Counted from the stretch's first letter, positions 951 through 22,710 are shown. The stretch is 30,582 nt of DNA from a virus (IMGVR_UViG_3300032293_001018:1-30582); one strand, 5' to 3'. A program made the numbers and translations. The notes: a model not told the origin generated them from the sequence alone.

Positions 951-960
951 ATATTTATAA
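951..960 (+). promoter_or_regulatory. Late-promoter-like motif ATATTTATAA before the glycosylation cassette
   Basis: An exact ATATTTATAA lies 17 nt before ATG 978. The same word recurs at similar distance before sheath, tube, tail assembly and fibre genes. The core TATTTATA is the reverse complement of the T4 late promoter TATAAATA, so the resemblance is suggestive only. If it is a -10-type element, the 5' UTR would be very short. Confidence 0.55.
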
Positions 961-977
961 TAACAGAATAATAAGTT

Positions 978-2933
978 ATGACAATTTTTTTTATCGCTCC
1001 ACACCTATCTACAGGTGGAATGCCTCAATATCTTTACAAGCAAATAGAGGCTTTATATAAAGAACATACAGTATATTGTTTAGAGTGGGATGATGTAACA
1101 GGAGGGAATCTTGTAGTTCAAAGAAATAGGATTAAAAACCTTTTAGGTAAAAGACTTATCACTTTAGATAAAGATAAACACCATTTATTTAAGCTAATCG
1201 AAGAATGTAATCCAAATATAATACACCTTCAGGAAATACCTGAAATGTTTATGCCTATTGATGTTGCTGATAAATTCTATTCAATAAATAGAAAGTATAA
1301 AATAGTTGAAACATCTCATGATTCAAGTTTTGATATAAATAGAAAACTATACTTCCCAGATAAATTCATGATGGTAAGTCAATATCAAGTAGAGACTTAT
1401 AAGCCATTAAATATCCCTATTGAATTAGTAGAATATCCTATAGAGTATAAAAAAAGAATTCATACTAGAGAGGAATTACTAAATAAGTTAGGTTTAGATC
1501 CTAATAAGAAACACGTTATAAATGTAGGATTATTTACTCCTAGAAAGAATCAAGCGGAGGTTATTGAGTATGCTAGAATGCTTAAAGACTATCCTATTCA
1601 ATTTCACTTTATTGGTAACCAAGCTGACAACTTTCAACAATATTGGCAGCCTCTAATGAAAGACTTTCCTTCAAATTGTAAATGGTGGGGAGAAAGAAGC
1701 GATGTAGATACTTTTTTTGAAATGGCTGACTTATTCCTATTTACTTCTAGAGGTCATGCTACTGATAAAGAAACAATGCCTCTAGTAATTAGAGAGGCTA
1801 TTAGTTGGAAAACACCATCACTTATTTTTAATTTAGATGTTTATTTAGATTATTTTAATAAATTTAGTAATATAAACTATCTAGATTTTAATAGTAAAGA
1901 AAATAATATTCAAAAAATAATTAAAAAATTAAATATAAAACCAATGATAAATTATAATATATGGAGTAGATGGGATGCATTTGAACAAAAAGTATATTAC
2001 GGAACTTCAGAAGATATAAACTCGCCTATAACAGTAGCACTAAAAGAATACCAATCAGACGGTGTATTATGGTCTGGTGATTATGATGCGCTTCATAAAA
2101 ATATAGAATATTGGATGGTTCCTATAAATAAAAATATGTGGGATTATGAAAAAGATCCAAAATTTGGAGGAATAAAAATATGCATCTATAAAAAAGAAAA
2201 CGATGAGTTAATATATGAACATCCTTACTTTCAAAAATTTGTAAACATTCCAAGAGTTTCTTTAAGTAATAGTATTCCATATCATTTAAATTATAAAGAA
2301 TTTTTTATTGAGGGTAAATACAAAAAATATTTTAATAAAAAATTTGATAATATAGTAGATGCTGGCGCTAATGTTGGAGTGTTTACTGAATATTTAATTC
2401 AAAATGAATTAAGTGAAAAAATAATAGCAATAGAATGCGATAGTAAAGCATTAAAAGACTTAAAAAATAATTTTAAAAGAGAATATAGAGTTGAAATTAT
2501 TCCTAAAGCACTTAATTCTACAAATGACAAAATTACTTTTTATCAATCAAAAGAAAATCCAGTAATAAGTAGTGTTATTCCCCCTGATAAATTAAAAAAT
2601 CATATGGCTGGAGTAAAGGGAAACAATGAAGTAATTGTAGATACTGTTACTATAAAAGATCTTGTAGATAAATTAGGTACTATAGATTTACTTAAAATTG
2701 ATATTGAAGGAGCGGAATATGAAATTATTAAAAATGTAAATCCGTCTTTATTTAAAAATATAAATAATTTACTTATTGAATGTCATTTTTTTGAAGAAGA
2801 TTATTTAGAAAAATATAGCAGTTTAATTAAAAAACTATCTGATAATGGATATAAAGTTGAAGAATTTATTAAAGATCAGGCAATAACACATAAAGGAGCG
2901 AGTGAAGTAATATTTGCTACTAAAAATAAATAG
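978..2933 (+). CDS. Bifunctional GT4 glycosyltransferase - FkbM methyltransferase
   Basis: A 651-residue two-enzyme fusion. Residues about 1-340 form a GT-B glycosyltransferase of the GT4 type: an N-terminal nucleotide-fold start with a Gly-rich loop (APHLSTGGMPQY), a second Rossmann half beginning near INVGLFTPRKNQ, and an EX7E donor-site motif at E265/E273. Residues about 340-455 are a Trp-rich beta-like linker module. Residues about 456-651 are an FkbM-type SAM-dependent methyltransferase: SAM motif VDAGANVGVF from residue 460, acidic IECD next, and LLKIDIEGAEYE at 571-582. Family knowledge: GT4 enzymes transfer nucleotide-activated sugars, and FkbM enzymes O-methylate sugars or related hydroxyls. 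The fusion suggests sugar addition followed by methyl capping. ATG 978 is preferred because the fold begins at once. The next gene starts 2 bases after its stop. Sugar and acceptor are unknown. Confidence 0.82.
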   Translation: MTIFFIAPHLSTGGMPQYLYKQIEALYKEHTVYCLEWDDVTGGNLVVQRNRIKNLLGKRLITLDKDKHHLFKLIEECNPNIIHLQEIPEMFMPIDVADKFYSINRKYKIVETSHDSSFDINRKLYFPDKFMMVSQYQVETYKPLNIPIELVEYPIEYKKRIHTREELLNKLGLDPNKKHVINVGLFTPRKNQAEVIEYARMLKDYPIQFHFIGNQADNFQQYWQPLMKDFPSNCKWWGERSDVDTFFEMADLFLFTSRGHATDKETMPLVIREAISWKTPSLIFNLDVYLDYFNKFSNINYLDFNSKENNIQKIIKKLNIKPMINYNIWSRWDAFEQKVYYGTSEDINSPITVALKEYQSDGVLWSGDYDALHKNIEYWMVPINKNMWDYEKDPKFGGIKICIYKKENDELIYEHPYFQKFVNIPRVSLSNSIPYHLNYKEFFIEGKYKKYFNKKFDNIVDAGANVGVFTEYLIQNELSEKIIAIECDSKALKDLKNNFKREYRVEIIPKALNSTNDKITFYQSKENPVISSVIPPDKLKNHMAGVKGNNEVIVDTVTIKDLVDKLGTIDLLKIDIEGAEYEIIKNVNPSLFKNINNLLIECHFFEEDYLEKYSSLIKKLSDNGYKVEEFIKDQAITHKGASEVIFATKNK

Positions 2934-2935
2934 AT

Positions 2936-3760
2936 ATGGTTTTTTTTCTATATAGTAATAAAGCATATGAACACCAAGCAATAGCTTGTATAAAATCTTT
3001 ATCTAATAAGATAACAAATGATGTAAAAATAGTTTATTATACTATTGATTTTAAAAGTGATTTTGAATTTACTAATTTAGTTAAAATAAAAATACCTTTA
3101 AAACCACAATATCCTACATTTCATTATTACAAAGCAGAATTATCTTTACTCACAATGGATTTATTTCCTAATGAGTATTATATGTTTTCGGATACAGACA
3201 TATTATATTCTAAAAGATTTTCTTTTACTAATTTAAAACATAATTTACCTTATCCTAAAGCTAGTTTTGGTCCTCATGAATATCCATTTATGTGGGAATT
3301 AAATAGTATAGGAGAAAGAACTGTTCTTAATGAAACAAGATTAATGGAATATCTTAACGTTCCCCAAAGATCGCAAAGATACGTTTGGTCTTGTATATAT
3401 ACTTTTAATTCTAATTGTAGAGATTTTTTTGAAGAATATAGTTCATTATGCAACTATACTTATCTATTAGATAAAAGATGGTACTATTATCCAATGCATG
3501 ATGAAACTCCATTTAACGTTTGTTTGTGGAAAAGAAACGCAACAGAAAATTTAGGATTCGCTTTTTTAAATACTCATTCACCCAATTCAGTTAAATTAGT
3601 TGAAGAAAATATAATTAAAGATAAAAATCTGAATTCTAACATTGATGAACTTGGTAATGATTGGGAATACATATACGACTCAGAACAAATTATTGCATAT
3701 CATGGATTTAAAAATTCCGAACCTATAAATCAGACACTTGATTATTTATTAAAATATTAA
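2936..3760 (+). CDS. GT-A type glycosyltransferase (DxD motif)
   Basis: A 274-residue protein with the layout of a nucleotide-diphospho-sugar (GT-A) transferase of the GT8-like kind. It opens with a beta strand and 'SNKAYEHQAIACIKSL', typical of the N-terminal sugar-nucleotide fold, and carries YMFSDTDILY with the metal-binding D86-T-D88. Two conserved-looking later blocks are rich in Trp/His (KRWYYYPMHDET near residue 180, and IIAYHGFKN near the end), positions where GT-A enzymes often place an acidic/His metal ligand. There is no signal peptide or membrane segment, so it should act in the cytoplasm of the infected cell. ATG 2936 follows the upstream stop by 2 bases and the next gene starts 1 base after its own stop, so the unit is translationally tight. 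The exact GT family is uncertain. Confidence 0.7.
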   Translation: MVFFLYSNKAYEHQAIACIKSLSNKITNDVKIVYYTIDFKSDFEFTNLVKIKIPLKPQYPTFHYYKAELSLLTMDLFPNEYYMFSDTDILYSKRFSFTNLKHNLPYPKASFGPHEYPFMWELNSIGERTVLNETRLMEYLNVPQRSQRYVWSCIYTFNSNCRDFFEEYSSLCNYTYLLDKRWYYYPMHDETPFNVCLWKRNATENLGFAFLNTHSPNSVKLVEENIIKDKNLNSNIDELGNDWEYIYDSEQIIAYHGFKNSEPINQTLDYLLKY

Positions 3761-3761
3761 T

Positions 3762-4703
3762 ATGAAATTATTAAATACAAGTTTTGATAAAAACGAATGT
3801 AAATTATATATTCAATGTACAATAGATACTGAAATTAGCAATTGTAGTATAGTAGTATCTGATTTACATTTAGATTGCGCTTATTATACATGGGACAATT
3901 TAATAATTTCTAAAGCTTTTAATTGCTGGATAGTTCCCTTTAATACAAAATTAGTAAATATAGTTTTACAAAATAATAAATTTCCTGGTTTTTGTGTTAA
4001 AGTATATGGTCCTAATAAACGATTACTACAAGTTGATAAATTTGTAATGAATGACGTTGATCCTTTAATAAAAAGATTGTATACTACTCCAACACACGAT
4101 GATGTCGGACCTTCATATGTTGATTTTTTCTTTGGAGATTTATGTGCGGGAATGGATACAAAAGGTATTGTAATAGATGCTGGTGCTAATGTAGGATTTT
4201 TTACTTTATTTGCTAAAGAAAATGGAGCTAAAAGAATATATAGTATAGAACCTGACCCTTTACCTTATAGCTTTTTAGAATCTAATTATAAATACGACCC
4301 TTCAATTATTACTATAAATAAAGTATTAAGTCATAAAAATGAACCTGTTGATTTTAATATAGTATTAGTAAATTCAGTAGGTAGTGGTATGAGTGAACAT
4401 AGAATAAAAGATGATAGTGTATTTCCTACTAAAATAGATTCAATATCCTTACACAATATATTAAATATAGAGCCTATAATTAATCTTTTAAAACTAGATA
4501 TTGAAGGAGCTGAATATGATGTATTAGATAATTTAGATAGCAAATATTTTAAAAACATAAATCAGTTGTTTATTGAATTTCATAAAGATCCGAAACCTAT
4601 TTTTAATAGACTTATTAATGAAGGATATCAAGTAGAGTATAGACATTCAAACGAAAATGATATTGCTGGTTTCATATATGCTAAAAAATATGAAAATAAT
4701 TAA
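3762..4703 (+). CDS. FkbM-family SAM-dependent methyltransferase
   Basis: A 313-residue protein. Residues about 1-125 form a beta-rich N-terminal module resembling the linker module of the upstream fusion (shared pattern W-x2-D ... W-x-VP-x-N ... F-x-G ... VY). The catalytic domain follows: VIDAGANVGFF at 137-147 is the SAM-binding glycine loop, IEPDP is the acidic strand end that contacts SAM ribose, and LLKLDIEGAEY at 242-252 is the FkbM hallmark, nearly identical to the first FkbM domain. Family members O-methylate sugars or other hydroxyl groups; a role in capping sugars added by the neighbouring transferases is an inference. The 3' end overlaps the following gene by 14 bases, arguing for co-translation. 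Confidence 0.85.
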   Translation: MKLLNTSFDKNECKLYIQCTIDTEISNCSIVVSDLHLDCAYYTWDNLIISKAFNCWIVPFNTKLVNIVLQNNKFPGFCVKVYGPNKRLLQVDKFVMNDVDPLIKRLYTTPTHDDVGPSYVDFFFGDLCAGMDTKGIVIDAGANVGFFTLFAKENGAKRIYSIEPDPLPYSFLESNYKYDPSIITINKVLSHKNEPVDFNIVLVNSVGSGMSEHRIKDDSVFPTKIDSISLHNILNIEPIINLLKLDIEGAEYDVLDNLDSKYFKNINQLFIEFHKDPKPIFNRLINEGYQVEYRHSNENDIAGFIYAKKYENN

Positions 4704-6771
4704 TATTACTCCAGGTTTAATACCTATCCCGCCTAATGGTTGGGGAGCCGTAGAAAAGATTATATGGGAAATACATAACTGCCTCCTAAAACTAGGCCAC
4801 GACTCTACAATCGCGTATCTGGACGATATAAATGATTATGACATAGTACATATCCACGTGGCAAACTTAGCAAACCTAGCGCATCAAAGAGGTATTCCTT
4901 ATTACTTTACTATGCATGATCACCATGCTTATCTATATGGTAAAGATTCTAGTGTATACAAAGAAAACTTACAAGCTATAAAGAATGCGCAAAAGTCATT
5001 TGTACCAGCTAAATTTTTAGTAGACTATTTTGAAGGCCTGCCTGAATACTTTTCTCATGGAGTAAATACCGACTACTTTATTCCTAGTGGAGTTAAAGAA
5101 CACAAATTATTATGTGTTGCTAATAATGGATTTATTCATGATCAAGCTGAAGATAGAAAAGGTTTTAGTTATGCAATTGAAGCTGCTAAACAATTAGATC
5201 TTCCTATTACTATAGCAGGGCCTAGTAACAATAAAAACTATTTTAAAAAGTTTCCTTCTGATTATAACAAACTTACTATTCTTTATGATTTAACTGAAGA
5301 TGAATTAAGAGACTTATATAAAGAGCATAGTATATTTGTTCATGCATCTATATTAGAAGCGGGACATCCTAATCTAACTTTACTTGAAGCTATGGCATCA
5401 GGACTTCCTGTAGTAGGAACTTATGAAGAAAATAATGAATTAAAAGGGCTAATTAAAGTAGAAAGAAATACAAAGCAAATAGTAGAGATTATATCTAAAT
5501 TAATAAACCCAATAAAATACCTTAGATATTCTAAACTGTCTAAAATAACAGCTGCAGAATTATCATGGATGAATAGAACAAAAGAGCTAATAAAAAAATA
5601 TTCTAATAATATGAAAGATCAACTTATGCAAGGTTATGAAACTACAAAAATATTAGCCATACCCTCAAAAGAACCAGTTCCTCAATTTAATATTAATTTT
5701 ATTCAAGGAGCATTTTTTGAAATTGTAGGAGGAAAACAAGTAGATTATGATATATCTTTTATAGATAATAAAACCAATAAAGTTTTACACTCAGGTAAAA
5801 TATCTTCTAATTGTTGGATTAAAGCTAATAAACAAAGTTTTATTGATTGGAAAATAATAGCATTAGATGGAATTCATGAATATGAATATAATTTAGACTT
5901 AAAAGATAAAAGAGTATATATTGCATTAGACTCTAAATCTTTAGGCGATACTTTAGCATGGTTTCCTTATATAGAAGAGTTTCAAAAAAAGCATAACTGT
6001 AAAATAATAACATCAACATTCTGGAATCATTTTTTTGAAAAAGAATATCCTCAATTTGAATTTGCTAAACCAGGAGAACCTGTTAATAATCTTTATGCAA
6101 TGTATACTATAGGATGGTTTTATAATAAAGATGGAACCATTGACTATAATAAAAACCCTAGAGACTTTAAGCATATTCCTTTACAACAAACGGCAACAGA
6201 CATTTTAGGTTTAGAGTATAAAGAATTAAGACCTAGAATATCGGTTAATAAAAATATAAAAAAAGAAAAACTAATTTCAATAGCAGTACATAGTACAGCA
6301 CAAGCTAAGTATTGGAATAATAAAAAAGGATGGCAAAAGGTAGTTGACTACTTAAAATCTAAAGGATATAAAGTTGTAATGCTATCAAAAGAAGAAGACG
6401 GATATATGGGAAATGCTAATCCTAAAGGCATAGAGTATCTTTCTGATACAAGTATTGAATCTACCATTAAAATATTACAGAAGTCAGAAATGTTTATTGG
6501 TATTAGTAGTGGACTTAGTTGGCTTAGTTGGGCATTAGGAACTAAAACATGCGTAGTATCCGGATTCTCAGATCCAGTAACTGAATTTGAAGACGCAATT
6601 AGAGTATATACAAAAGATGGATTCTGTAGAGGTTGTTTCAATACACATCAATTAGATCCAGGTGATTGGAATTGGTGCCCAAAACATAAAGGAACACAAA
6701 GACAGTTTGAATGCAGTAAAACAATATCAGGAGAAGAAGTTATAAAAGCTATTCAAAACCATATTTCTTAG
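4690..6771 (+). CDS. GT4 glycosyltransferase fused to Aah/TibC-like protein O-heptosyltransferase
   Basis: I choose ATG 4690 (693 residues), not the in-frame ATG at 4657, because MKIINITPG begins a GT4 fold at once. Residues about 1-320 are GT4: ITPGLIPIPPNGWGAVE loop, TMHDHHAY, and the donor-site acidic pair E223/E233 within EAGHPNLTLLEAMASGLPVV. Residues about 328-405 are a beta-rich domain (FNINFIQGAFFEIVGG). Residues 408-692 are a GT9-like heptosyltransferase: SLGDTLAWFPYIEEFQ, HSTAQAKYWNNKKGW from H534, and SSGLSWLSWALGTKT. Four Cys near the C-terminus (C646, C649, C663, C675) in CRGC...NWCPKH...FECS match the iron-binding Cys4 site of TibC. The order beta-domain, GT-B, Cys4 is that of bacterial autotransporter heptosyltransferases (Aah, TibC), which O-glycosylate Ser in repeated adhesin strands. 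The large fibre gene starts 44 bases downstream. The actual sugar donor is unproven. Confidence 0.88.
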   Translation: MKIINITPGLIPIPPNGWGAVEKIIWEIHNCLLKLGHDSTIAYLDDINDYDIVHIHVANLANLAHQRGIPYYFTMHDHHAYLYGKDSSVYKENLQAIKNAQKSFVPAKFLVDYFEGLPEYFSHGVNTDYFIPSGVKEHKLLCVANNGFIHDQAEDRKGFSYAIEAAKQLDLPITIAGPSNNKNYFKKFPSDYNKLTILYDLTEDELRDLYKEHSIFVHASILEAGHPNLTLLEAMASGLPVVGTYEENNELKGLIKVERNTKQIVEIISKLINPIKYLRYSKLSKITAAELSWMNRTKELIKKYSNNMKDQLMQGYETTKILAIPSKEPVPQFNINFIQGAFFEIVGGKQVDYDISFIDNKTNKVLHSGKISSNCWIKANKQSFIDWKIIALDGIHEYEYNLDLKDKRVYIALDSKSLGDTLAWFPYIEEFQKKHNCKIITSTFWNHFFEKEYPQFEFAKPGEPVNNLYAMYTIGWFYNKDGTIDYNKNPRDFKHIPLQQTATDILGLEYKELRPRISVNKNIKKEKLISIAVHSTAQAKYWNNKKGWQKVVDYLKSKGYKVVMLSKEEDGYMGNANPKGIEYLSDTSIESTIKILQKSEMFIGISSGLSWLSWALGTKTCVVSGFSDPVTEFEDAIRVYTKDGFCRGCFNTHQLDPGDWNWCPKHKGTQRQFECSKTISGEEVIKAIQNHIS

Positions 6772-6815
6772 TATAATTTATAAATCCCAAATATGTATTA
6801 GAAAGATAGTCCGAG

Positions 6816-9800
6816 ATGGGATTTCGTATAGAAGCGCCTAAACAAGACGGTAACGCCAGGTTCAATACTCTAAAAGTTAATCTAAATGAAAATAATTTAG
6901 CTACTAGAGTAGTTGTTGTAGACGGAGAAGGTAATTTTTATTACGGAAGCGGCGGCGGAGGTGGCACTGGTGGAACAAATGGTACTTCTGGCGTAAATGG
7001 AACAAATGGTACTTCTGGTGCAAATGGATCCTCAGGTACTTCAGGAACCGGTTTTAATACGATAGCTAATCCTTTACAAGGCAGATTACTAATTTCTGAT
7101 GGTAGTGTTAATCGTGCGTCTGCTTCAGCAGCTTTATTTTATGATACTGGAAGTTCTACTTTACAAGTTACAGGATCGTTAGTAACAGATAATTTAACAG
7201 TTAATGCTGATGTATTTGAATTTACAGGTTCAATTAATATAAGTGGATCTTTAACTACTGATCAACTAGTAGTAAATGCTGATGTATTTGAGTTTACAGG
7301 ATCATTAAAAGTAAGCGGCAGTATTAGTGGTTCACTACATGGCACATCAAGTTGGGCTGTGAGCGCTTCTTGGGCACCTAATGCTGAACAAGCAGCAACT
7401 GCATCTTTTGTAACTGCATCAAATGTTTGGGGACCATTTGGTTCTAATAGTATAAGAAGTGCATCATATGCAGCAACAGCATCTTCGGCAGACAATTTTT
7501 ATATTAGAGCAGATAGATTTGAATTTACAGGATCTCTTGAAGTTGATGGAGGGATTACTGGTTCTTTATTAGGTACAGCTTCTTATGCAATTACTGCATC
7601 GCATGCTTTAAATGTAGTAGGAACCGCAAGTTGGGCTTATAATGCATTAACTGCATCTTCTGCTGATGATTTTTATATACGAGCAGATGTATTTGAGTTT
7701 ACTGGTTCATTAAGAGTTAGTGGTAGCATTACTGGTTCATTATTAGGAACCGCAAGTTATGCAATTACAGCTTCGCACGCATTAAATGCAGTAGGTACAG
7801 CATCTTGGGCATATAATGCTTTAACAGCATCCTCAGCAGATGATTTTTTAGTTAGAGGTACTTTAACTGCTCAAACAATTGTAGCCCAAGTAATTACTTC
7901 TAGTACGCAATATATAACTGGATCGACTATATTTGGCTCTCAACAATCTAATACACATCAATTTACAGGATCAGTTTCTATAACTGGAAGTTTAACAGTA
8001 GATAATCTAACTGTTTTAGCAGATGTGTTTGAATTCACAGGATCGGTAATAGTTGATGGTGGAATTACTGGTTCACTATATGGTACTTCAAGTTGGGCTG
8101 TAAGTGCATCATGGGCACCAGCTGCAACTCAATCAGATACAGCGTCTTTTGTTACAGCATCTAATGTATGGGGACCATTTGGATCAAATAGTATAAGAAG
8201 CGCATCGTATGCAGCAACAGCATCATCAGCAGACGATTTCTATATTAGAGCAGATGTATTTGAGTTTACTGGTTCATTAAGAGTTAGTGGAAGTATTACA
8301 GGATCATTATTAGGAACTGCTAGTTATGCTCCAAATATATATAACACAGATGGAGAATTAACAGGAAATAGAACAATAAGTGCTAGTTTTTATAGTCTTA
8401 GTGTAATTTCTACTAAATCAACTGGTTCAACATTTACAGTATCACACATACAAACCCAATCAAATGCTACAGATACAGCAGATATTGGGATGCAAGTTTC
8501 TTATAATCTTAGTGCATCATCAGCAACTAATCAACTTGTAGCAAGAGCATTTCAATTAAGTGTAGCAAATAATTTAACTGGTAGTGGAATTTTACAAAAT
8601 TTAAGAGTATTTAATTTAGCAGCTTTTTTTGGTACAGGAACAACAACTAGTGATGCAGATTTAGTTTATTTAGAAAGAGGTAATCTTACAGGAACTATAA
8701 ATAATTATAGAGCTATAAGAATAGCTAATTTTACAGGAACTAATAGAGGCGGTATTGCAATAGCTGCAATAGGCGGTACTGGTAATGCCGCTTATGTAAA
8801 TATGGGAAGTATAGTAATCCCAAATGGTAGATGGGGTATATATCAATCCGAAGTAGCTATTAGTAACTATTTTGAAGGAAATTTTTCAATAGGAACTACT
8901 CAAACAGGTTCTTATAAATTACATGTTATAGGTAATACTGGAATATCTGGAAGTTTAACAGCTACAGGATCTATTTTCTTTCCTAGTCTTATTGAATCTC
9001 CTGAAACTAATGTAGTTTTAGTAAACACTTCAACTGGTCAATTACATTATACTGCATCTTCTGCTTTAATACCACTTACAGCATCTTATGCTTTAACAGC
9101 ATCTCAAGCATTAACTGCATCTTCTGCTGATGACTTTTATATACGAGCAGATGTATTTGAATTTACAGGATCATTAAAAGTAAGCGGTAGCATTAGTGGT
9201 TCACTACATGGTACTTCTAGTTGGGCTATAAGTGCTTCTTGGGCACCTGCAGCAGCACAATCAGACACCGCATCATTTGTAACAGCATCAAATGTCTGGG
9301 GACCTTTTGGTTCTAATAGTATTATAAGTGCATCATATGCAGCTACTGCATCTTCCGCAGATGATTTTTACATAAGATCTGATGTGTTTGAATTCACAGG
9401 TTCACTAAGAGTTAGTGGAAGTATTACAGGATCATTATTAGGTACTGCTAGTTTTGCTACAACTGCTTCATACGCTTTAAATGCAGGATCAGCATTTCCT
9501 TTTTCAGGATCTGCAGTTATAACAGGAAGTCTTGTAATAACAGGTTCCAGTTCTAGTACAAGTTATTTACTTAATGCATCTGGCACATCAAAATTAACAA
9601 CTATACATGTTGAGAATTTAAAAAATCCAGCTATTGGAGCAAGTGGCCAAATAGACGTATTTGTTGTAAATAATCCAGGAGATGCTGGATATCAAAAATT
9701 ATCAATTTTAGCTGGAGGAAGTCCATACTCAACAGTATTAAGAACATCAGGTGAGGGAGGTGGAAGCAGAGGTATGATACTTGATGCATCTGGCCCTGGA

Positions 9801-10898
9801 GGAGAAATATATTTTGGTACGAGTAATGTAAATAGATGGTTAATTAGCGGTACATATAATGCTTCAGGATCTGGCCATATATTTCCAATTGGGGATGGTC
9901 TTTATGATATAGGAAATCCTAGTGCAAAAGTTGCAAATTATTATGGATTAAGAAGTTATATATCAAATTTATTAAGTGTAACAGGATCTGTATTAATTTC
10001 AGGAAGCTCAACAATAACAGGATCATTAAGAGTCAGTGATGGTATTACAGGATCTTTATTTGGTACTGCTAGTTTTGCATTAACTAGCTCAAATGTATTA
10101 GGAGGAACGACTAATTATATACCTATATGGAATGGACAAACTGTTTTATCAAGTAGTGCAGTTTATCAGTCTTCTGGTAATTTAGGTATTGGATTAACAA
10201 ATCCAACTTCAACAATACACATCTCAGGAAGCGCAAATGCTACACTAGGTCTTAGAATAGAAAACGCAAATTCTTCTAATGCAGATGCATTTTCATCATT
10301 TCAAGCTGGTAGTAGTGTAGCTAATAATAGATTTATAAATGTGGGTTATGCAGGTCAAGGAGTTATTTTACAAGGTGCTTACAGACCAACAGGAAGTTTT
10401 ATAGTTTCTAATGGTAACGGTGGACTTAACTTCTTAGCAACAGGTAGTGGTAATAATGCGCATATAAGATTCTTTACATCTGCTACAACTGTAGGGGGCG
10501 CAGAAAGAGTAATAATATTAGATAGCGGATATGTAGGTATAGGAACATCAACACCGGCGTATCCTTTAGATGTTAATGGAACTGCTAGGGTTACTACATT
10601 AATTGAAACTTCTACAAGAACACTAAAAGAAAATATACAATCTTATTCAACTGACTTAGAGAAGTTTAAAAACCTAAATCCTGTTTCATTTAATTGGAAA
10701 GATACTAAAAAAGAAGACATAGGTTTAATAGCAGAGGAATTAGAAGATTTATTCCCTGAATTTGTATCTAAAGATGATACTGGCACTCCTATAGGTATAC
10801 AATATGGAAAACTAGGTGTTATATTTATAAATGTAATAAAGGAGCAACAAAAAAGAATAGAGATATTAGAGAATCAAGTTAAACAATTAATTAAGTAG
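6816..10898 (+). CDS. Large tail fibre with collagen-like segment, modular repeats and C-terminal S74 chaperone domain
   Basis: A 1360-residue fibre. The N-terminal ~40 residues (MGFRIEAPKQDGNARF...) are a probable anchor. Residues 44-79 are a Gly run followed by about ten collagen-like GXY triplets (GTN, GTS, GVN, GAN). The body repeats a module (ADVFEFTGSL-x-V-x-G-x-ITGSLLGTAS...) in eight versions separated by Ala/Ser/Thr-rich stretches with the block NVWGPFGSNSI. Later it shows NLGIGLTNP and YVGIGTSTP repeats, typical of trimeric fibre shafts. The C-terminal ~95 residues form an S74-type intramolecular chaperone: STRTLKENI with candidate Ser-Lys dyad S1266/K1271, then IGLIAEELEDLFPEFV and a coiled-coil tail. 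Such domains trimerise the fibre and are then self-cleaved. The Asp that usually follows the Ser is Thr here. Its Ser/Thr wealth and position make it a prime glycosylation candidate. Confidence 0.88.
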   Translation: MGFRIEAPKQDGNARFNTLKVNLNENNLATRVVVVDGEGNFYYGSGGGGGTGGTNGTSGVNGTNGTSGANGSSGTSGTGFNTIANPLQGRLLISDGSVNRASASAALFYDTGSSTLQVTGSLVTDNLTVNADVFEFTGSINISGSLTTDQLVVNADVFEFTGSLKVSGSISGSLHGTSSWAVSASWAPNAEQAATASFVTASNVWGPFGSNSIRSASYAATASSADNFYIRADRFEFTGSLEVDGGITGSLLGTASYAITASHALNVVGTASWAYNALTASSADDFYIRADVFEFTGSLRVSGSITGSLLGTASYAITASHALNAVGTASWAYNALTASSADDFLVRGTLTAQTIVAQVITSSTQYITGSTIFGSQQSNTHQFTGSVSITGSLTVDNLTVLADVFEFTGSVIVDGGITGSLYGTSSWAVSASWAPAATQSDTASFVTASNVWGPFGSNSIRSASYAATASSADDFYIRADVFEFTGSLRVSGSITGSLLGTASYAPNIYNTDGELTGNRTISASFYSLSVISTKSTGSTFTVSHIQTQSNATDTADIGMQVSYNLSASSATNQLVARAFQLSVANNLTGSGILQNLRVFNLAAFFGTGTTTSDADLVYLERGNLTGTINNYRAIRIANFTGTNRGGIAIAAIGGTGNAAYVNMGSIVIPNGRWGIYQSEVAISNYFEGNFSIGTTQTGSYKLHVIGNTGISGSLTATGSIFFPSLIESPETNVVLVNTSTGQLHYTASSALIPLTASYALTASQALTASSADDFYIRADVFEFTGSLKVSGSISGSLHGTSSWAISASWAPAAAQSDTASFVTASNVWGPFGSNSIISASYAATASSADDFYIRSDVFEFTGSLRVSGSITGSLLGTASFATTASYALNAGSAFPFSGSAVITGSLVITGSSSSTSYLLNASGTSKLTTIHVENLKNPAIGASGQIDVFVVNNPGDAGYQKLSILAGGSPYSTVLRTSGEGGGSRGMILDASGPGGEIYFGTSNVNRWLISGTYNASGSGHIFPIGDGLYDIGNPSAKVANYYGLRSYISNLLSVTGSVLISGSSTITGSLRVSDGITGSLFGTASFALTSSNVLGGTTNYIPIWNGQTVLSSSAVYQSSGNLGIGLTNPTSTIHISGSANATLGLRIENANSSNADAFSSFQAGSSVANNRFINVGYAGQGVILQGAYRPTGSFIVSNGNGGLNFLATGSGNNAHIRFFTSATTVGGAERVIILDSGYVGIGTSTPAYPLDVNGTARVTTLIETSTRTLKENIQSYSTDLEKFKNLNPVSFNWKDTKKEDIGLIAEELEDLFPEFVSKDDTGTPIGIQYGKLGVIFINVIKEQQKRIEILENQVKQLIK
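7278..7589 (+). repeat. 312-bp in-frame direct repeat, copy A
   Basis: The first of three 104-codon units of equal length in the large fibre gene. Each runs from ADVFEFTGSL to TASYA/TASFA and includes TSSWAVSASWAP and NVWGPFGSNSI. The protein is strongly conserved between copies, while many third codon positions differ. Boundaries were set by aligning the translations by eye. Confidence 0.8.
7509..7682 (+). repeat. 174-bp tandem direct repeat, unit 1
   Basis: A 58-codon unit (ADRFEFTGSL ... TASSADDFYIR) followed directly by a second unit. The last 34 residues before DDF agree with unit 2 except for one Val/Ala change, yet I count 17 synonymous codon differences among those 34 codons. It overlaps the end of 312-bp copy A because both are built from the same smaller module. 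Confidence 0.8.
7683..7856 (+). repeat. 174-bp tandem direct repeat, unit 2
   Basis: Abuts unit 1 with no spacer and encodes ADVFEFTGSL ... TASSADDFLVR. After it the frame passes into a different sequence (GTLTAQTIVAQ). Synonymous differences from unit 1 include Ser codon switches between TCT and AGT, which need more than one base change. Confidence 0.8.
8019..8330 (+). repeat. 312-bp in-frame direct repeat, copy B
   Basis: The second 104-codon unit, from ADVFEFTGSV to GTASYA. It encodes GITGSLYGTSSWAVSASW, NVWGPFGSNSI and SITGSLLGTASYA like the other copies. No indels relative to copies A and C were seen in the translation. Confidence 0.8.
9147..9458 (+). repeat. 312-bp in-frame direct repeat, copy C
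   Basis: The third 104-codon unit, from ADVFEFTGSL to GTASFA. Residues match copy A closely (SLHGTSSWAISASWAP), but codons differ at many third positions. The region between copies B and C holds unrelated fibre sequence, so the three copies are dispersed rather than tandem. Confidence 0.8.
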
Positions 10899-13309: not shown

Positions 13310-16300
13310 ATGCCATCTTGGAAAAAAATTATAACTTCTGGCTCATCAGATGCCAGTCTTGCAGCTTTATTTGTTACTAACGCAGTAACCTCTAGTATAT
13401 TTTCTGGTTCTAGATTTATAGGAGCTTCATTTACAGGCTCATTTACTGGATCACTTAGTGGTTCTTTATTTGGTACTTCTAGTTTTGCAGTTAGTTCTTC
13501 TAGAGCCACTACATCTTCTTTTGCTTTAACATCTTCTTTTATTAGTACTACAGGTACAAATGCATTCGTTCAAGGAGGAAATTCTTTTGGTGCCGCAGCA
13601 CTTATAGGTACTAATGATAATCAAAATTTTGCAATAGAAACTAATGGATCTACTAAAGTAACTGTAGATACATCAGGTAATGTTGGTATTGGCACTACGT
13701 CTCCTACCGGATCTTTACAAGTAAATGGAATTTTATCTATATCAAATAATGCAGTAATCGGTCAAGGTAATGCTTATGGAACAATTGGTGCTGCTAATTT
13801 TACTACATTAAAATTATATGATAGTTCAACAGGAGATACAGTATTAAATAATCAAGGATATAATATACAACTACAAACAGCTGGTAGTTCTAAATTAACT
13901 ATTGCAAATGGAGGTAGTGTTGGTATAGGAACTAATACACCTAGAGATACATTAGACATAGTAGGAAGTGCTATTTTAAGAAGTACATATAATCTTAGTT
14001 GGGGAAATACATATGGAGCAGGAGTACCTACAATTACAGGTATATCAGGATCATCAGCAGTTTTAGCATTTTTTCCAGCAGGAAGTACATCAGGAGAAAA
14101 AGTTAGAATTAATTCTGCTGGTAATGTTGGTATAGGTACTACATCACCATCTTACACTCTAGATGTATCAGGAAACATACATGCAACAAATACAGTGTAT
14201 GTTGACGCTAGTAACGCAGCATATCTTAGAGGCGGTGATGACCATGAATGGTGGGATATAAATGTAGCTAACACTGTTGGGTTATATGGAGTATCAAACT
14301 CAGCAGTAGGCGCTATTAAATTAGGTAGTGGAGGTCCAACATTATATGGTGCTAGCAGTAATTTAGGTATAGGTACTACATCACCCGCTACATTACTAGA
14401 TGTAAACGGAACAACAGTATCTAAATTATATGGGGGTAGTGGAAGTGCACCAAACTATGCGCAGTTTGATGCTTTTATGGGAGGAACAGATCCAACATAC
14501 GGTAATAATTATGCTTACTTTGGAATGCATAGATCGGGATTTGTGAGTTGGCAATTAGGAATGATAAGTAGTAGTTTTGTAATTGCTAGAGGTGGTGGTG
14601 CTTCTCAATTTACTTTGTGGACTGATAGACCGTTTGCTATTGATGGGTCTAATAATGTTGGTATAGGTACTATAACACCCTCAACAAGACTACACATAGC
14701 AGGTTCGACTCAAAGTACAGCAGCTAGTGGAGTAGCAAGATTAGGATTTGCTGATAGTTCATCTGTAGCTTTATTCACAAATGCAGACCCAGCTTATGGT
14801 ATGTTATTTGGTACACTAAGCTCAGGTAAAGGATGGATACAACAACAAAGAGTTGATGGAACTGCAACCTCATATGATCTAGCATTACAGCCTAATGGAG
14901 GTAATGTTGGCATAGGTACTACCTCTCCTACGTATAAATTAGATATAGTAGGAGCATCAGTAGGTACGACTGCAGGAACTCAAGAATTATTACAAGAATT
15001 TAATGTAACAACTTCAAATAATGATTATTTAGAACTTACAAATACAAGAGTATCTAATGGATCTACTTGGGAAACTGCTGGATTTAGAATCCAACAAAAA
15101 GTTGATTCTACTTGGATGGGATACATTCAATTTAATGGAAATAATAATGGAGGTATTTCATTTGGTACAGGACTTAATGCAGGAGCACCTCTTAATATAC
15201 CAGAAGCACTAAGAATAGTTAATGGCGGAAACATAGGAGTACGCGTGACATCACCTAGTTCTTACTTAGATATTGGAGGAGCTCAAGATACCGCAGGTCA
15301 AATATCCTTACAACTAAGATCTGGTAATAGCAATGCTAATTTTAGCAGTAATCAAATCACATTAGGATATAATAACTCGGCAACTTATAGACATGCTATA
15401 AAAACAAGACATAATTCAGGAGCAGTTTCTGGAAATGCTATTGATTTTTATACTTGGAAACAGAGTACAGATGATCTAAATACAATAGGTACTCAGCATG
15501 TAATGTCTTTAGATGGTCCAAATGTTGGAATAGGAGTTACATCACCAACAGGTAAATTACATGTTAGTGCATCTGGAAATCCAGTTATTTTTGTAGAATC
15601 AGACACTGACGGAGATTCTACTTCAACAGTTTTAATTAGTGGAAATAAATCAGGGGCTCCTAACTATACTGCAACTACTCTAGAATTAAGATCTAATATA
15701 GATTATAGAGGTAGAGGTATATTAATGACGTATACTGGAGGATCTGAAAAGTGGTTTGCTGGAGTTCCATATACAGGAGGAGGATATCAAATAGGATATA
15801 GTACTACAGCTCCATATGATCCACCAAATGCGGCGTTATATATTAATTCATCTAAAAATATAGGTATAGGAACTACTACTCCTGGACAAAAATTAGATGT
15901 AATAGGAAGACTTAAGTTTAGGTCTGATACATCTACAACTCCTGGATTTTGGTTAACAGGTAATGATGGCTCAGAAGATGTATTTGTTGGACTTCAAAGT
16001 ACTACGTCAACAAGTGCCTTTGGAGTTTATTCAGCCGCATCTTGGAGATTTACTATATTAAATGGAGGTAATGTAGGTATAGGAACAACTAATCCTACAG
16101 AAAAATTACAAGTAGATGGTACTATAGTAACAGATTATACTATAGCTGATACTCAAGGATATAGGTTAATAAAACCTAAAAATGGTACATATATTACCCA
16201 AACTAGTACAGTAACGGGTGCTATAAAAATTACTTATCCTGTTGGATATACAAATACAATGCATACTGTAAAAGTAAAAGTTTATGAGTATGTAACTAAT

Positions 16301-17038
16301 GAATCATTTACAATTACTTTTGGTGGATATAATTACTCTGATACTCCATCTTGGTATAATTGCTTTGCTTATATAGAAGGAAATCCTGCTATAGATAGAA
16401 ACTTTAATGTAAGATTTGGTTATGATGGAACTTACATGGTTGTTTATATAGGTGAATTAAGTTCTACTTGGAGTTATCCTCAAGTGTTCATAGAAGAAGT
16501 AGGATTGGGATATAGTGGTGTAAGTTCTACATGGAGAAATAATAACTGGACTGTAGGATTTGAAGCAAGTGCATTTAGTAATGTTACAGCGACAGTAAGT
16601 AATACAGCAGCACATACTTTTGTTAGAGATGGTGCAAATGCTTATTATTCGCTTGGTAGTATTGGTATAGGCGCGTCTTCTCCTGCATATAAATTAGATG
16701 TATTAGGTACAATTCGTGCAACTGGAGATGTTATTGCATATTCTGATGCTAGAGTAAAAGACAATGTAGAACCTATTGAAAATGCACTAGAAAAAGTAAT
16801 ATCATTAAGAGGAGTAAGCTATAATAGAAAAGATACAGATGATAAATCACGTAAGATTGGAGTAATTGCCCAAGAAGTACTTCCAATAATACCAGAAGTA
16901 GTATCTAAAGATCAAAATGGTAATTATAGTGTGGCATATGGTAATATGGTAGGACTATTAATTGAAGCAGTTAAAGAACAACAAAAACAAATAGACGAAC
17001 TCAAATATTTATTAGAAAATAAGAAAAAGAAAAAATAA
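13310..17038 (+). CDS. Large tail fibre with repeated NVGIGT shaft motifs and C-terminal S74 chaperone domain
   Basis: A 1242-residue fibre. The N-terminus (MPSWKKIITSGSSDASLAAL) is shared with the 11437 gene; residues about 35-75 are a short TGSLSGSLFGTSSFA module. The shaft holds at least 11 copies of a beta motif of the form G-N-V-G-I-G-T-T-S-P-x3-L-D-V-x-G, interleaved with variable domains. A probable receptor-binding or carbohydrate-binding domain with many Trp/Tyr lies near residues 960-1110. The C-terminal ~98 residues are a canonical S74 intramolecular chaperone: SDARVKDNV with Ser-Lys dyad S1145/K1150 and the following Asp, IGVIAQEVLPIIPEVV, then a Lys-rich coiled-coil tail. Family knowledge: the chaperone trimerises the fibre and is released by self-cleavage after the Ser. 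The stop overlaps the next start (TAATG). Confidence 0.88.
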   Translation: MPSWKKIITSGSSDASLAALFVTNAVTSSIFSGSRFIGASFTGSFTGSLSGSLFGTSSFAVSSSRATTSSFALTSSFISTTGTNAFVQGGNSFGAAALIGTNDNQNFAIETNGSTKVTVDTSGNVGIGTTSPTGSLQVNGILSISNNAVIGQGNAYGTIGAANFTTLKLYDSSTGDTVLNNQGYNIQLQTAGSSKLTIANGGSVGIGTNTPRDTLDIVGSAILRSTYNLSWGNTYGAGVPTITGISGSSAVLAFFPAGSTSGEKVRINSAGNVGIGTTSPSYTLDVSGNIHATNTVYVDASNAAYLRGGDDHEWWDINVANTVGLYGVSNSAVGAIKLGSGGPTLYGASSNLGIGTTSPATLLDVNGTTVSKLYGGSGSAPNYAQFDAFMGGTDPTYGNNYAYFGMHRSGFVSWQLGMISSSFVIARGGGASQFTLWTDRPFAIDGSNNVGIGTITPSTRLHIAGSTQSTAASGVARLGFADSSSVALFTNADPAYGMLFGTLSSGKGWIQQQRVDGTATSYDLALQPNGGNVGIGTTSPTYKLDIVGASVGTTAGTQELLQEFNVTTSNNDYLELTNTRVSNGSTWETAGFRIQQKVDSTWMGYIQFNGNNNGGISFGTGLNAGAPLNIPEALRIVNGGNIGVRVTSPSSYLDIGGAQDTAGQISLQLRSGNSNANFSSNQITLGYNNSATYRHAIKTRHNSGAVSGNAIDFYTWKQSTDDLNTIGTQHVMSLDGPNVGIGVTSPTGKLHVSASGNPVIFVESDTDGDSTSTVLISGNKSGAPNYTATTLELRSNIDYRGRGILMTYTGGSEKWFAGVPYTGGGYQIGYSTTAPYDPPNAALYINSSKNIGIGTTTPGQKLDVIGRLKFRSDTSTTPGFWLTGNDGSEDVFVGLQSTTSTSAFGVYSAASWRFTILNGGNVGIGTTNPTEKLQVDGTIVTDYTIADTQGYRLIKPKNGTYITQTSTVTGAIKITYPVGYTNTMHTVKVKVYEYVTNESFTITFGGYNYSDTPSWYNCFAYIEGNPAIDRNFNVRFGYDGTYMVVYIGELSSTWSYPQVFIEEVGLGYSGVSSTWRNNNWTVGFEASAFSNVTATVSNTAAHTFVRDGANAYYSLGSIGIGASSPAYKLDVLGTIRATGDVIAYSDARVKDNVEPIENALEKVISLRGVSYNRKDTDDKSRKIGVIAQEVLPIIPEVVSKDQNGNYSVAYGNMVGLLIEAVKEQQKQIDELKYLLENKKKKK

Positions 17039-19895: not shown

Positions 19896-21653
19896 ATGGC
19901 CGAAACACTTATTAGCCCAGGAGTTTTCTTAAATGAAAACGATCTATCCCAAATAACACAAGGACCTATTACTGCTGGCGCAGCTCTTTTAGGACCTACA
20001 GTAATTGGACCTGTAAACATTCCAACATTAGTAACTTCATATTCAGAATATAAAGCTCTTTTTGGAGCTGCGTTTGTTTCTGGTGGAGCTAACTATGAGT
20101 ATTTAACTTCAATTGCAGCACTTAACTACTTTGAGCAGGGCGGAGATTCTCTTATTGTTACTAGAGTAGCTTCTGGTTCTTATACAGCAGCAACTGCTTC
20201 TGTAGCTTCTATTGGAGCTACTACTTCTTTTGAACTCGAAACTCTTTCAGTTGGTAATTTAATGAATAACTCAGGTGGAACTTCTGTAGATGGTTCTTTA
20301 CCATCAGGATCTTCTGCTAATATTCGTTGGGAAGTAACTGGAGTTGATACTGGTTCAGGTGTATTTAGTATGATTATCCGCCGTGGTGATGATTACAATA
20401 ATAGTAAAACTATTCTTGAAACTTGGAATAATCTTTCATTAGATCCAAATCAAAATAACTATATTGCTTATGTAATTGGTGATCAAACACAAGCAATTCG
20501 TCAAGATTCAACTGGAGATTATTACTTACAAACAACCGGATCTTATCAAAATAAGAGCCGCTATGTAAGACTTAAATCAGTTAATCTTCCTACTCCTGGA
20601 TATTTTGATCAAACTGGAATTCCTCAAAATCAATATACATCTTCACTTCCTGCTTTAGGATCTGGATCGATTAATGGAGCATTTGGTGGTGCATCAGGTG
20701 CTATATTTGGTTCATTCGGTAAAGCTGCAATGAATATGTTTGAAGCAATACCAGTTGCAAATTCAGTAGTAGCTACACCAGCAACTAATATTCAAGGTAT
20801 ACATCCAGCAGATTATGCAACCGCAATTAATCTTCTTGAAAATCAAGATTCTTATAATGTGAATGTAGTATATGCACCAGGATTAAATAGCCAAAATGCA
20901 GCTACTACAGTAGGTAGTTTATTAACTCTTGTTCAAGGTAGAGGAGATGCAATTGCAGTAGTAGATATGGCTTCTTATGGACAACAAATAAATGCAGTTC
21001 TTACTCAAGCAAACTTATACGATAATTCGTATGGCGCAACTTACTGGCCATGGGTACAAGTTAGAAGCCGTGAGACTGGTAAAATAAACTTTGTTCCTGC
21101 TTCTACATTAGTACCAGCAGTTTATGAATACAATGATAAAGTTGCTGCTGAATGGTTTGCACCAGCAGGTCTTAACAGAGGCGCACTTTCTACAGTACTT
21201 CAACCAGAAAGAAAATTAACAGTTAACGATAGGAACTTGCTTTATCAAGGTAAAGTTAACCCAATCGCTACATTCCCTGGAGTTGGTACAGTAATATATG
21301 GTCAAAAGACTCTTCAACAAAAACCATCTGCACTTGATCGTGTAAATGTAAGAAGATTGTTGATTGCTCTTAAAGACTATATTGGTCAAATCGGCGAAAC
21401 AATCGTATTCGAACCAAATACTCAGGTAACAAGAAACAAATTCTTAAATCAAGTTAATCCATACTTAGAATCAGTACAACAAAGACAAGGTCTTTATGCA
21501 TTCCAAGTAGTAATGGATGAGACTAATAACACTCCAGATGTAGTAGATCGTAACCAATTGGTTGGTACAATATACTTACAGCCTACAAAGACTGCGGAAT
21601 TCATTCAACTTGACTTCAACATTCTTCCAACTGGCACAACATTTGGTCAATAA
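19896..21653 (+). CDS. Contractile tail sheath protein (T4 gp18-like)
   Basis: A 585-residue protein with the hallmarks of phage tail sheaths: N-terminal SPGVFLNENDLSQITQGPIT, an early GPVNIPTLVTSYSEYKALFG block, and AALNYFEQGGDSLIVTRVAS. The conserved C-terminal domain has APAGLNRGALSTV, VNDRNLLYQGKVNPIATFPG, IYGQKTLQ, NVRRLLIALKDYIGQI and the final strand region with LQPTKTAEFIQLDFNI. Sheath subunits form the contractile helix around the tube, and the C-terminal strands interlock neighbours. It identifies the phage as a myovirus type. Codon use differs somewhat from the fibres (more CGT/CGC Arg), as expected for a highly expressed protein. Length is in the normal range for long sheaths; the middle (residues ~95-280) is a variable insertion domain. 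Confidence 0.93.
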   Translation: MAETLISPGVFLNENDLSQITQGPITAGAALLGPTVIGPVNIPTLVTSYSEYKALFGAAFVSGGANYEYLTSIAALNYFEQGGDSLIVTRVASGSYTAATASVASIGATTSFELETLSVGNLMNNSGGTSVDGSLPSGSSANIRWEVTGVDTGSGVFSMIIRRGDDYNNSKTILETWNNLSLDPNQNNYIAYVIGDQTQAIRQDSTGDYYLQTTGSYQNKSRYVRLKSVNLPTPGYFDQTGIPQNQYTSSLPALGSGSINGAFGGASGAIFGSFGKAAMNMFEAIPVANSVVATPATNIQGIHPADYATAINLLENQDSYNVNVVYAPGLNSQNAATTVGSLLTLVQGRGDAIAVVDMASYGQQINAVLTQANLYDNSYGATYWPWVQVRSRETGKINFVPASTLVPAVYEYNDKVAAEWFAPAGLNRGALSTVLQPERKLTVNDRNLLYQGKVNPIATFPGVGTVIYGQKTLQQKPSALDRVNVRRLLIALKDYIGQIGETIVFEPNTQVTRNKFLNQVNPYLESVQQRQGLYAFQVVMDETNNTPDVVDRNQLVGTIYLQPTKTAEFIQLDFNILPTGTTFGQ

Positions 21654-22224: not shown

Positions 22225-22710
22225 ATGCCAGTATTGGATCCTAATGAAATAATGTTCACAGCGTTTGAACCAACAGTATCAAATAGATTTGTGATGTACA
22301 TTGATGGTATTCCTTCTTACATGATTAAGAAGGCAGACGCGCCAGGTGTAACTTTAAATGAGATTAAACTCGACCACATTAACGTTTACCGTAAGATCAA
22401 AGGTAAAGCTGAATGGAGAGACATGAGTTTATCTTTATACAATCCAGTATCTCCTTCAGGACAGCAGGCTGTAATGGAGTGGGTACGTCTTCACCATGAA
22501 TCAGTAACTGGACGTGATGGTTATTCTGACTTCTATAAGAAAGATATTAACTTGTCTATTTTAGGTCCAGTAGGTGATATTGTAAGTGAGTGGATTGTAA
22601 AAGGCGCTTTCATTAAAGAAGCTACTTTCGGAAACTATGACTGGTCAACATCTGATCCAACTGAATTAACTTTGTCTATTGGTATGGATTATTGCGTACT
22701 TAATTACTAG
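22225..22710 (+). CDS. Tail tube protein (T4 gp19-like)
   Basis: A 161-residue protein matching the T4 gp19-type tail tube in size and pattern: N-terminal FEPTVSNRFVMYIDGIPSYM, a central GVTLNEIKLDHINVYRKIKG strand-turn-strand, and a long helix region SPSGQQAVMEWVRLHH. These are followed by DINLSILGPVGDIVSEWIVKG and the closing strands with EATFGNYDWSTSDPTELTLS. Tube subunits form hexameric rings stacked inside the sheath and give the channel for DNA. It has its own promoter-like motif and ends at a strong hairpin terminator, so it may be made as an abundant short transcript. Confidence 0.92.
   Translation: MPVLDPNEIMFTAFEPTVSNRFVMYIDGIPSYMIKKADAPGVTLNEIKLDHINVYRKIKGKAEWRDMSLSLYNPVSPSGQQAVMEWVRLHHESVTGRDGYSDFYKKDINLSILGPVGDIVSEWIVKGAFIKEATFGNYDWSTSDPTELTLSIGMDYCVLNY

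Follow-up and report, generated by a model that had tools for sequence, protein, structure and literature searches.

A phage tail-block cassette anchored by a TibC-type O-heptosyltransferase and its probable role in tail fiber glycosylation

Within a 30,582-base virus-record fragment (IMGVR_UViG_3300032293_001018:1-30582, here called the window), which encodes part of a myovirus tail including the sheath, the tube, and two S74 fibers, four genes on the plus strand specify six enzyme domains: GT4 plus FkbM, GT-A, FkbM, and GT4 plus heptosyltransferase. The sequence of the last domain places it in the iron-finger protein O-heptosyltransferase family (TibC/AAH), not among the generic lipopolysaccharide enzymes. 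We propose that with this cassette the phage probably O-glycosylates its own tail fibers in the cytosol, with collagen-like Gly-[Ser/Thr]-Ser fiber tracts as the likely acceptor. The proposal builds on the enzyme families and their conserved residues, the order of the genes, the joint occurrence of the enzyme with tracts and heptose genes, and the exchange of the cassette's middle. With somewhat less assurance, we lean toward a wider view in which viral protein O-heptosylation is widespread: a phage-type TibC-like clade with an altered nucleotide pocket, often accompanied by phage-borne heptose genes, would modify Ser/Thr of proline-poor fiber tracts to give glycan-covered rods, varied by exchangeable glycosyltransferase and methyltransferase genes. 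To our knowledge, protein-glycosylating enzymes of this type had previously been described only from bacterial adhesins.

The cassette comprises the following features:
978-2933, plus strand: GT4 glycosyltransferase (978-1931, the conserved cassette end) fused to an FkbM O-methyltransferase; from domain matches and a conservation break at 1931 in two relatives
2936-3760, plus strand: predicted GT-A fold glycosyltransferase with a DTD motif, nearest solved fold GT6; from motif, model, and Foldseek
3762-4703, plus strand: second FkbM O-methyltransferase; from a domain match
4690-6771, plus strand: GT4 glycosyltransferase and iron-finger O-heptosyltransferase (TibC/AAH type) in one fused protein; from domain and structure-library matches
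5665-6768, plus strand: the heptosyltransferase domain, with the catalytic Asp codon at 5947-5949 and iron-finger Cys codons at 6625, 6634, 6676, and 6712
1932-4681, plus strand: swappable middle, replaced wholesale between fixed ends in the siblings L003 and L019; from DNA comparison

A TibC-type heptosyltransferase encoded by phages

The fourth gene matches GT4 (PF13692, 4.6e-11) and GT9/TIGR04414 (1.4e-87), the latter, a model of autotransporter O-heptosyltransferases (BAHT), at 294 bits against a curated cut-off of 200 bits. A first-pass annotation of the window had named a GT9-like O-heptosyltransferase here; the O-heptosyltransferase stands, but TibC-type replaces generic GT9. The domain matches the TibC sequence (4rap) at 1e-58, and its AlphaFold2 model (predicted local distance difference test, pLDDT, 88) reaches a template modeling (TM) score of 0.84 to TibC over 375 columns, with WaaC far behind, and fits both the N-terminal beta-barrel and the two-lobed GT-B catalytic domain of TibC. 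TibC works when produced together with its substrate in E. coli. Its likely catalytic base is Asp110, and its donor-binding residues are Arg286, Trp305, Thr226, and Lys230; activity is abolished or falls steeply if Asp110, Arg286, Trp305, or Lys230 is changed to alanine, or if any one of the four cysteines of the iron finger is lost (PMC4358343). Asp110, Thr226, Lys230, Trp305 (TibC numbering) and the four iron cysteines (339, 342, 358, 370) are kept in the window and invariant across 77 dereplicated viral homologues. The hydrophobic pair F265/V266 of the TibC beta-hairpin thumb aligns to Y/M in the window and is varied in other homologues.

The window enzyme resembles TibC/AAH, of which TibC itself acts on protein, in its fold including the N-terminal beta-barrel, catalytic Asp, phosphate-binding Thr/Lys, Trp, and iron-finger cysteines. 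It differs in being phage-encoded, fused to a GT4 domain, and placed beside GT4, GT-A, and FkbM genes, in the replacement of Arg286, in falling in a separate clade, in its link to Gly-Ser/Thr tracts, and in having no autotransporter partner. Since no neighboring autotransporter with strand-loop-strand repeats appears among the window proteins scanned against libraries, we describe the enzyme as a separate phage-type subfamily, not an autotransporter-modifying one. In a quick tree that includes some long branches, 70 viral and 12 bacterial rows form one clade (82 rows) apart from TibC-type rows, with a Shimodaira-Hasegawa-like approximate likelihood ratio test (SH-aLRT) support of 98.

Searching with two short peptide patterns, we find at least 588 viral stretches that encode a relative of the heptosyltransferase. 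Of 76 viral loci, 57 have a GT4 domain like the first of the window at or close to the heptosyltransferase; no such partner was found in the bacterial loci examined. Among annotated phage records, the enzyme occurs only in Microcystis phage Mel-JY01 and three metagenomic phage records. The 1226-aa protein of Mel-JY01 (PP395634.1; L046:2-3052, 4750-8430) is named only 'methyltransferase FkbM' in the record, its C-terminal end being a heptosyltransferase domain, and the same record annotates antisense frames over a plus-strand Ser/Thr-Gly tract open reading frame of 181 triplets. A separate 824-aa protein (L032:10007-12481) carries two tandem heptosyltransferase domains and adjoins a ribonucleotide reductase gene, not tail genes.

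Partner enzymes and an exchangeable middle

The two GT4, one GT-A, and two FkbM domains of the first-pass annotation are borne out, by Pfam matches for the GT4 and FkbM domains and by the DTD motif and a GT6-like model for the GT-A enzyme. The first gene matches GT4 (PF00534, 7.8e-16) and FkbM (PF05050, 7.3e-17), and the third matches FkbM (8.5e-14). The 274-aa protein encoded at 2936-3760 has no match in Pfam, NCBIfam, PHROGs, or PDB sequences; its DTD motif is invariant and conforms to the DxD of GT-A enzymes, and its model (pLDDT 85) matches GT6-type GT-A folds (Foldseek 1.5e-7, TM about 0.5). On this modeled fold the protein is a GT6-like GT-A glycosyltransferase, with a sequence too distant for family assignment.

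DNA identity to L003 is 92% over 928-1931, then absent until 4690, and 87% onward; identity to L019 is 77% over 946-1931 and 76% from 4682. Because identity is kept only outside the middle, the first GT4 and the GT4-heptosyltransferase form fixed ends around exchangeable tailoring genes. The L003 middle encodes GT4-FkbM-GT2 in a single 1258-aa protein, and the middle genes of other relatives are rhamnosyl-O-methyltransferase-like, C-methyltransferase, or TylF-like. With the ends fixed and the middle swapped between siblings, the glycan probably diversifies from phage to phage through middle-gene exchange.

Gly-[Ser/Thr]-Ser fiber tracts as the likely acceptor

Two features directly behind the cassette bear on the acceptor:
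6816-10898, plus strand: tail fiber with an S74 chaperone domain, starting 44 nt past the heptosyltransferase gene; the proposed carrier of the glycan
6972-7043, plus strand: short Gly-X-Ser/Thr/Asn tract of that fiber, 8 triplets; proposed acceptor

The first-pass annotation placed the cassette before fiber genes and raised the question whether such cassettes always neighbor S74 fibers. An S74 fiber does follow in the window, but only 9 of 21 records have one, and we rejected it as a constant partner; the link is instead to collagen-like Ser/Thr-Gly tracts. In these tracts, position X is Ser/Thr in 87% of cases and position Y is Ser in 71%, with 1.3% proline. Among tail relatives, a tract of at least 6 triplets is present in 11/11 enzyme-positive versus 1/16 enzyme-negative phages (Fisher 9e-7), a value that is not that of a pre-set test, since tract pattern and threshold were chosen during exploration. 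At 20 triplets or more, the counts are 10/11 versus 0/16, with several enzyme-negative contigs covering just part of the tract region.

A reverse check, run after this comparison, started from 47 contigs longer than 30 kb picked by a (Gly-Thr-Ser)n-like DNA pattern alone, with 48 controls picked by a Gly-Pro-X pattern (25) or a random 14-mer (23). The enzyme scores above cut-off in 18/47 tract-picked contigs versus 3/48 controls (p 2e-4): one Gly-Pro-X control and two random 14-mer controls, the latter two apparently one phage. The positive controls that we opened, the Gly-Pro-X one and one of the random pair (G109 and G131, the second probably the same phage as G151), both carry Ser/Thr tracts. 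The association extends to bacteria: 7 of 12 bacterial homologues in the phage-type clade, found in Methylobacter, Methylococcaceae, Methylomicrobium, Polaromonas, and a gammaproteobacterium, adjoin a small GTSG-repeat protein that in most cases has a signal-like start; of 33 TibC-type bacterial homologues, none does so. One such pair in Methylobacter luteus IMV-B-3098 (L049:8953-11143), where the repeat protein has a signal-like start, is possibly a bacterial two-gene glycoprotein module.

Fiber tracts vary in length among close relatives. L002 has a fiber with the same start as that of the window and a tract of about 299 triplets; L003 shares the fiber start and keeps a short tract, and has a separate 33-triplet tract protein upstream of the cassette, where the window is cut. 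We also considered Arg286 loss as a marker of tracts and rejected it, as it is essentially confined to one clade and offers no independent contrasts.

Phage-borne heptose-nucleotide genes

Of 76 viral loci, 20 have a gene resembling HldE domain II, which in most cases directly abuts the stop codon of the heptosyltransferase gene, and in 15 of those an HldE domain I-like kinase lies next to it. L143-type phages have HldE-like genes directly behind the heptosyltransferase. The L018 phage, which has the cassette type and sheath of the window, carries elsewhere a phage-borne heptose-nucleotide set of overlapping cupin, HldE-II, HldE-I, and HldD-like genes (L282:8532-10867; 2e-31, 3e-34, and 3e-51 for the last three). 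All of these HldE and HldD matches score below the curated cut-offs, which leaves the exact sugar uncertain. Elsewhere in relatives, HldE-I occurs in the L018 phage, three L143-type records, and LR756501; a GmhA-like gene occurs only in the L027 contig, and the phosphatase model tried in this HldE/GmhA/GmhB search of relatives gave no match. The 735-kb metagenomic phage LR756501.1 encodes a near full-length heptose-7-phosphate kinase-like protein (W02, 209213-210175, 306 bits) and also a GT4-heptosyltransferase fusion.

Proposed pathway and competing explanations

We infer the donor sugar, the order of steps, the acceptor residues, and the purpose as follows. The TibC-type domain would attach the first sugar, most likely heptose from a nucleotide-activated heptose, to Ser/Thr of the Gly-[Ser/Thr]-Ser collagen-like tracts of newly made fiber chains in the cytosol. 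The two GT4 domains, one of them fused to the heptosyltransferase, would lengthen the chain together with the GT-A enzyme, the two FkbM enzymes would O-methylate it, and modification would precede fiber assembly. A cytosolic reaction needs neither export nor a lipid carrier, which fits the cassette. We propose that the sugars make the proline-poor tract stiffer, shield it, and allow the surface of the virion to vary. Threonine glycosylation is reported to stabilize collagen (Bann et al. 2000, as cited in PMC3368898), and by analogy a proline-poor tract may need such stabilization; shielding, as in the mycobacteriophages treated in PMC11256854, is another possible use. The first-pass suggestion of a glycan on virion proteins is strongly favored by the protein O-heptosyltransferase family and its tie to fiber tracts and ADP-heptose synthesis genes, and the further claim that the cassette builds and methyl-caps a short glycan agrees with the domains and with the swappable middle, yet goes beyond them.

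Several observations weigh against fiber-tract glycosylation as we propose it. The tract of the window, whose left end is cut, has only 8 triplets, and no HldE genes are seen in its 30.6 kb; the window phage may use the host heptose pool. Arg286, which contacts adenine in TibC, is Thr in the window and is replaced in 67/77 viral versus 11/54 bacterial homologues, so that the donor nucleotide may differ, with some uncertainty. The tail-relative comparison contains only three tree-independent pairs, all of which agree at the lower threshold if the one weak tract of L247, an enzyme-negative phage, is disregarded. Phages of the L143 group encode the enzyme together with heptose genes and no such tract of at least 20 triplets, and another acceptor must therefore exist there. 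An L143-type tail fiber (L143:3-6983) shows an intein splicing domain match (PF14890, below cut-off) and a Gp53-like tail fiber C-terminus.

The L143-type phages, the short tract of the window, and the beta-helix that is the known TibC acceptor (PMC4358343) would each be accommodated if virion proteins were glycosylated at another site, such as a beta-structured fiber repeat, the Ser/Thr-rich protein at 258-917, or the capsid. We consider this unlikely, though worth keeping in view, because enzyme and tract go together whichever of the two is taken as the starting point, and do so in bacteria as well, and because ITGS-type fiber repeats, which we rejected as acceptor, are equally common in enzyme-negative relatives. 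The first-pass annotation also offered host surface glycans or DNA as targets, and both are disfavored. Phage glycosyltransferases are known to alter host surface glycans, and GT4 and FkbM enzymes are common in surface polysaccharide loci, so the cassette could act on the host during infection, for example to exclude other phages. Library scans found no polymerase, flippase, or acyltransferase in the cassette, however, its anchoring enzyme is from a protein-specific family, and its motif and gene place are those of virion genes, which makes such a role improbable. Modification of phage DNA is the least probable of the explanations: we know of no DNA-glycosylating enzyme of the TibC family, and no base-modification gene was recognized among the window proteins scanned, although DNA is a frequent target of phage glycosyltransferases (see the discussion in PMC12619734). 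Scarcely more credible is a decayed or passenger cluster without present function. The existence of enzyme-negative tail relatives does indicate that the cassette is dispensable, but all frames are open, catalytic residues are invariant over 77 homologues, and gene ends are conserved.

Relation to known systems and significance

Phage virion glycosylation is documented in few systems. In mycobacteriophages Che8 and Rita, capsid and tail-tube subunits carry glycans, as shown by experiment (Freeman et al. 2023, as cited in PMC11256854). The likeness lies in phage-encoded glycosyltransferases for the phage's own virion proteins; the cassette described here differs in its heptosyltransferase pathway, methylation, and fiber tracts, as deduced from its genes. 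A similar outcome is seen in BclA of the Bacillus exosporium, where a Gly-X-Thr collagen-like region bears short O-glycans including methylated sugars (as cited in PMC3368898); its enzymes and proteins differ from those of the phage cassette, and no homology is implied.

Phage virion glycosylation and TibC-type enzymes were each already known; what seems new is that phages bring the two together, along with heptose genes and a Gly-Ser/Thr acceptor class, a combination that we did not find in the open-access literature, which leaves out most subscription papers. The two papers there that mention both subjects deal with other matters, judging by title and abstract. If correct, our proposal provides a concrete pathway with a predicted acceptor motif and donor-sugar supply in at least several hundred phage contigs, shows that a bacterial enzyme family linked to virulence reaches into viruses and acts on a second class of acceptor, and may explain the long Gly-Ser/Thr tracts of many phage fibers. 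Middle-gene exchange further suggests that phages vary their coat sugars.

Setting within the tail block

The virus carrying the window is an Immutovirus-like myovirus. Among cultured phages, Flavobacterium phage immuto (Immutovirus) has the sheath closest to its own; immuto has a similar gene order in the tail block but lacks the heptosyltransferase, a GT4 match, a Gly-Ser/Thr tract, and the cassette. Further features are:
951-958, plus strand: ATATTTAT promoter-like motif, 27 nt before the cassette; it also precedes the sheath, tube, and other tail genes
13310-17038, plus strand: second S74 tail fiber, context; from library domain matches
19896-21653, plus strand: tail sheath, context
22225-22710, plus strand: tail tube, context

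Just upstream of the cassette, a 219-aa Ser/Thr-rich protein (258-917) is without a library match, and only its first 29 residues resemble an L037 protein. The four cassette genes abut as first annotated, with gaps of only 2, 1, and -14 nt, and we therefore read them as one transcription unit; the start of the last gene is set at 4690, not 4657, because relatives begin at 4690. The late-promoter-like motif said to be common to the cassette and virion genes is likewise confirmed. Of 14 copies of ATATTTAT in the window, 8 fall within 650 nt of upstream gaps, where 0.37 are expected, and these eight stand 23-32 nt before starts, including those of the gene at 978, the sheath, and the tube.

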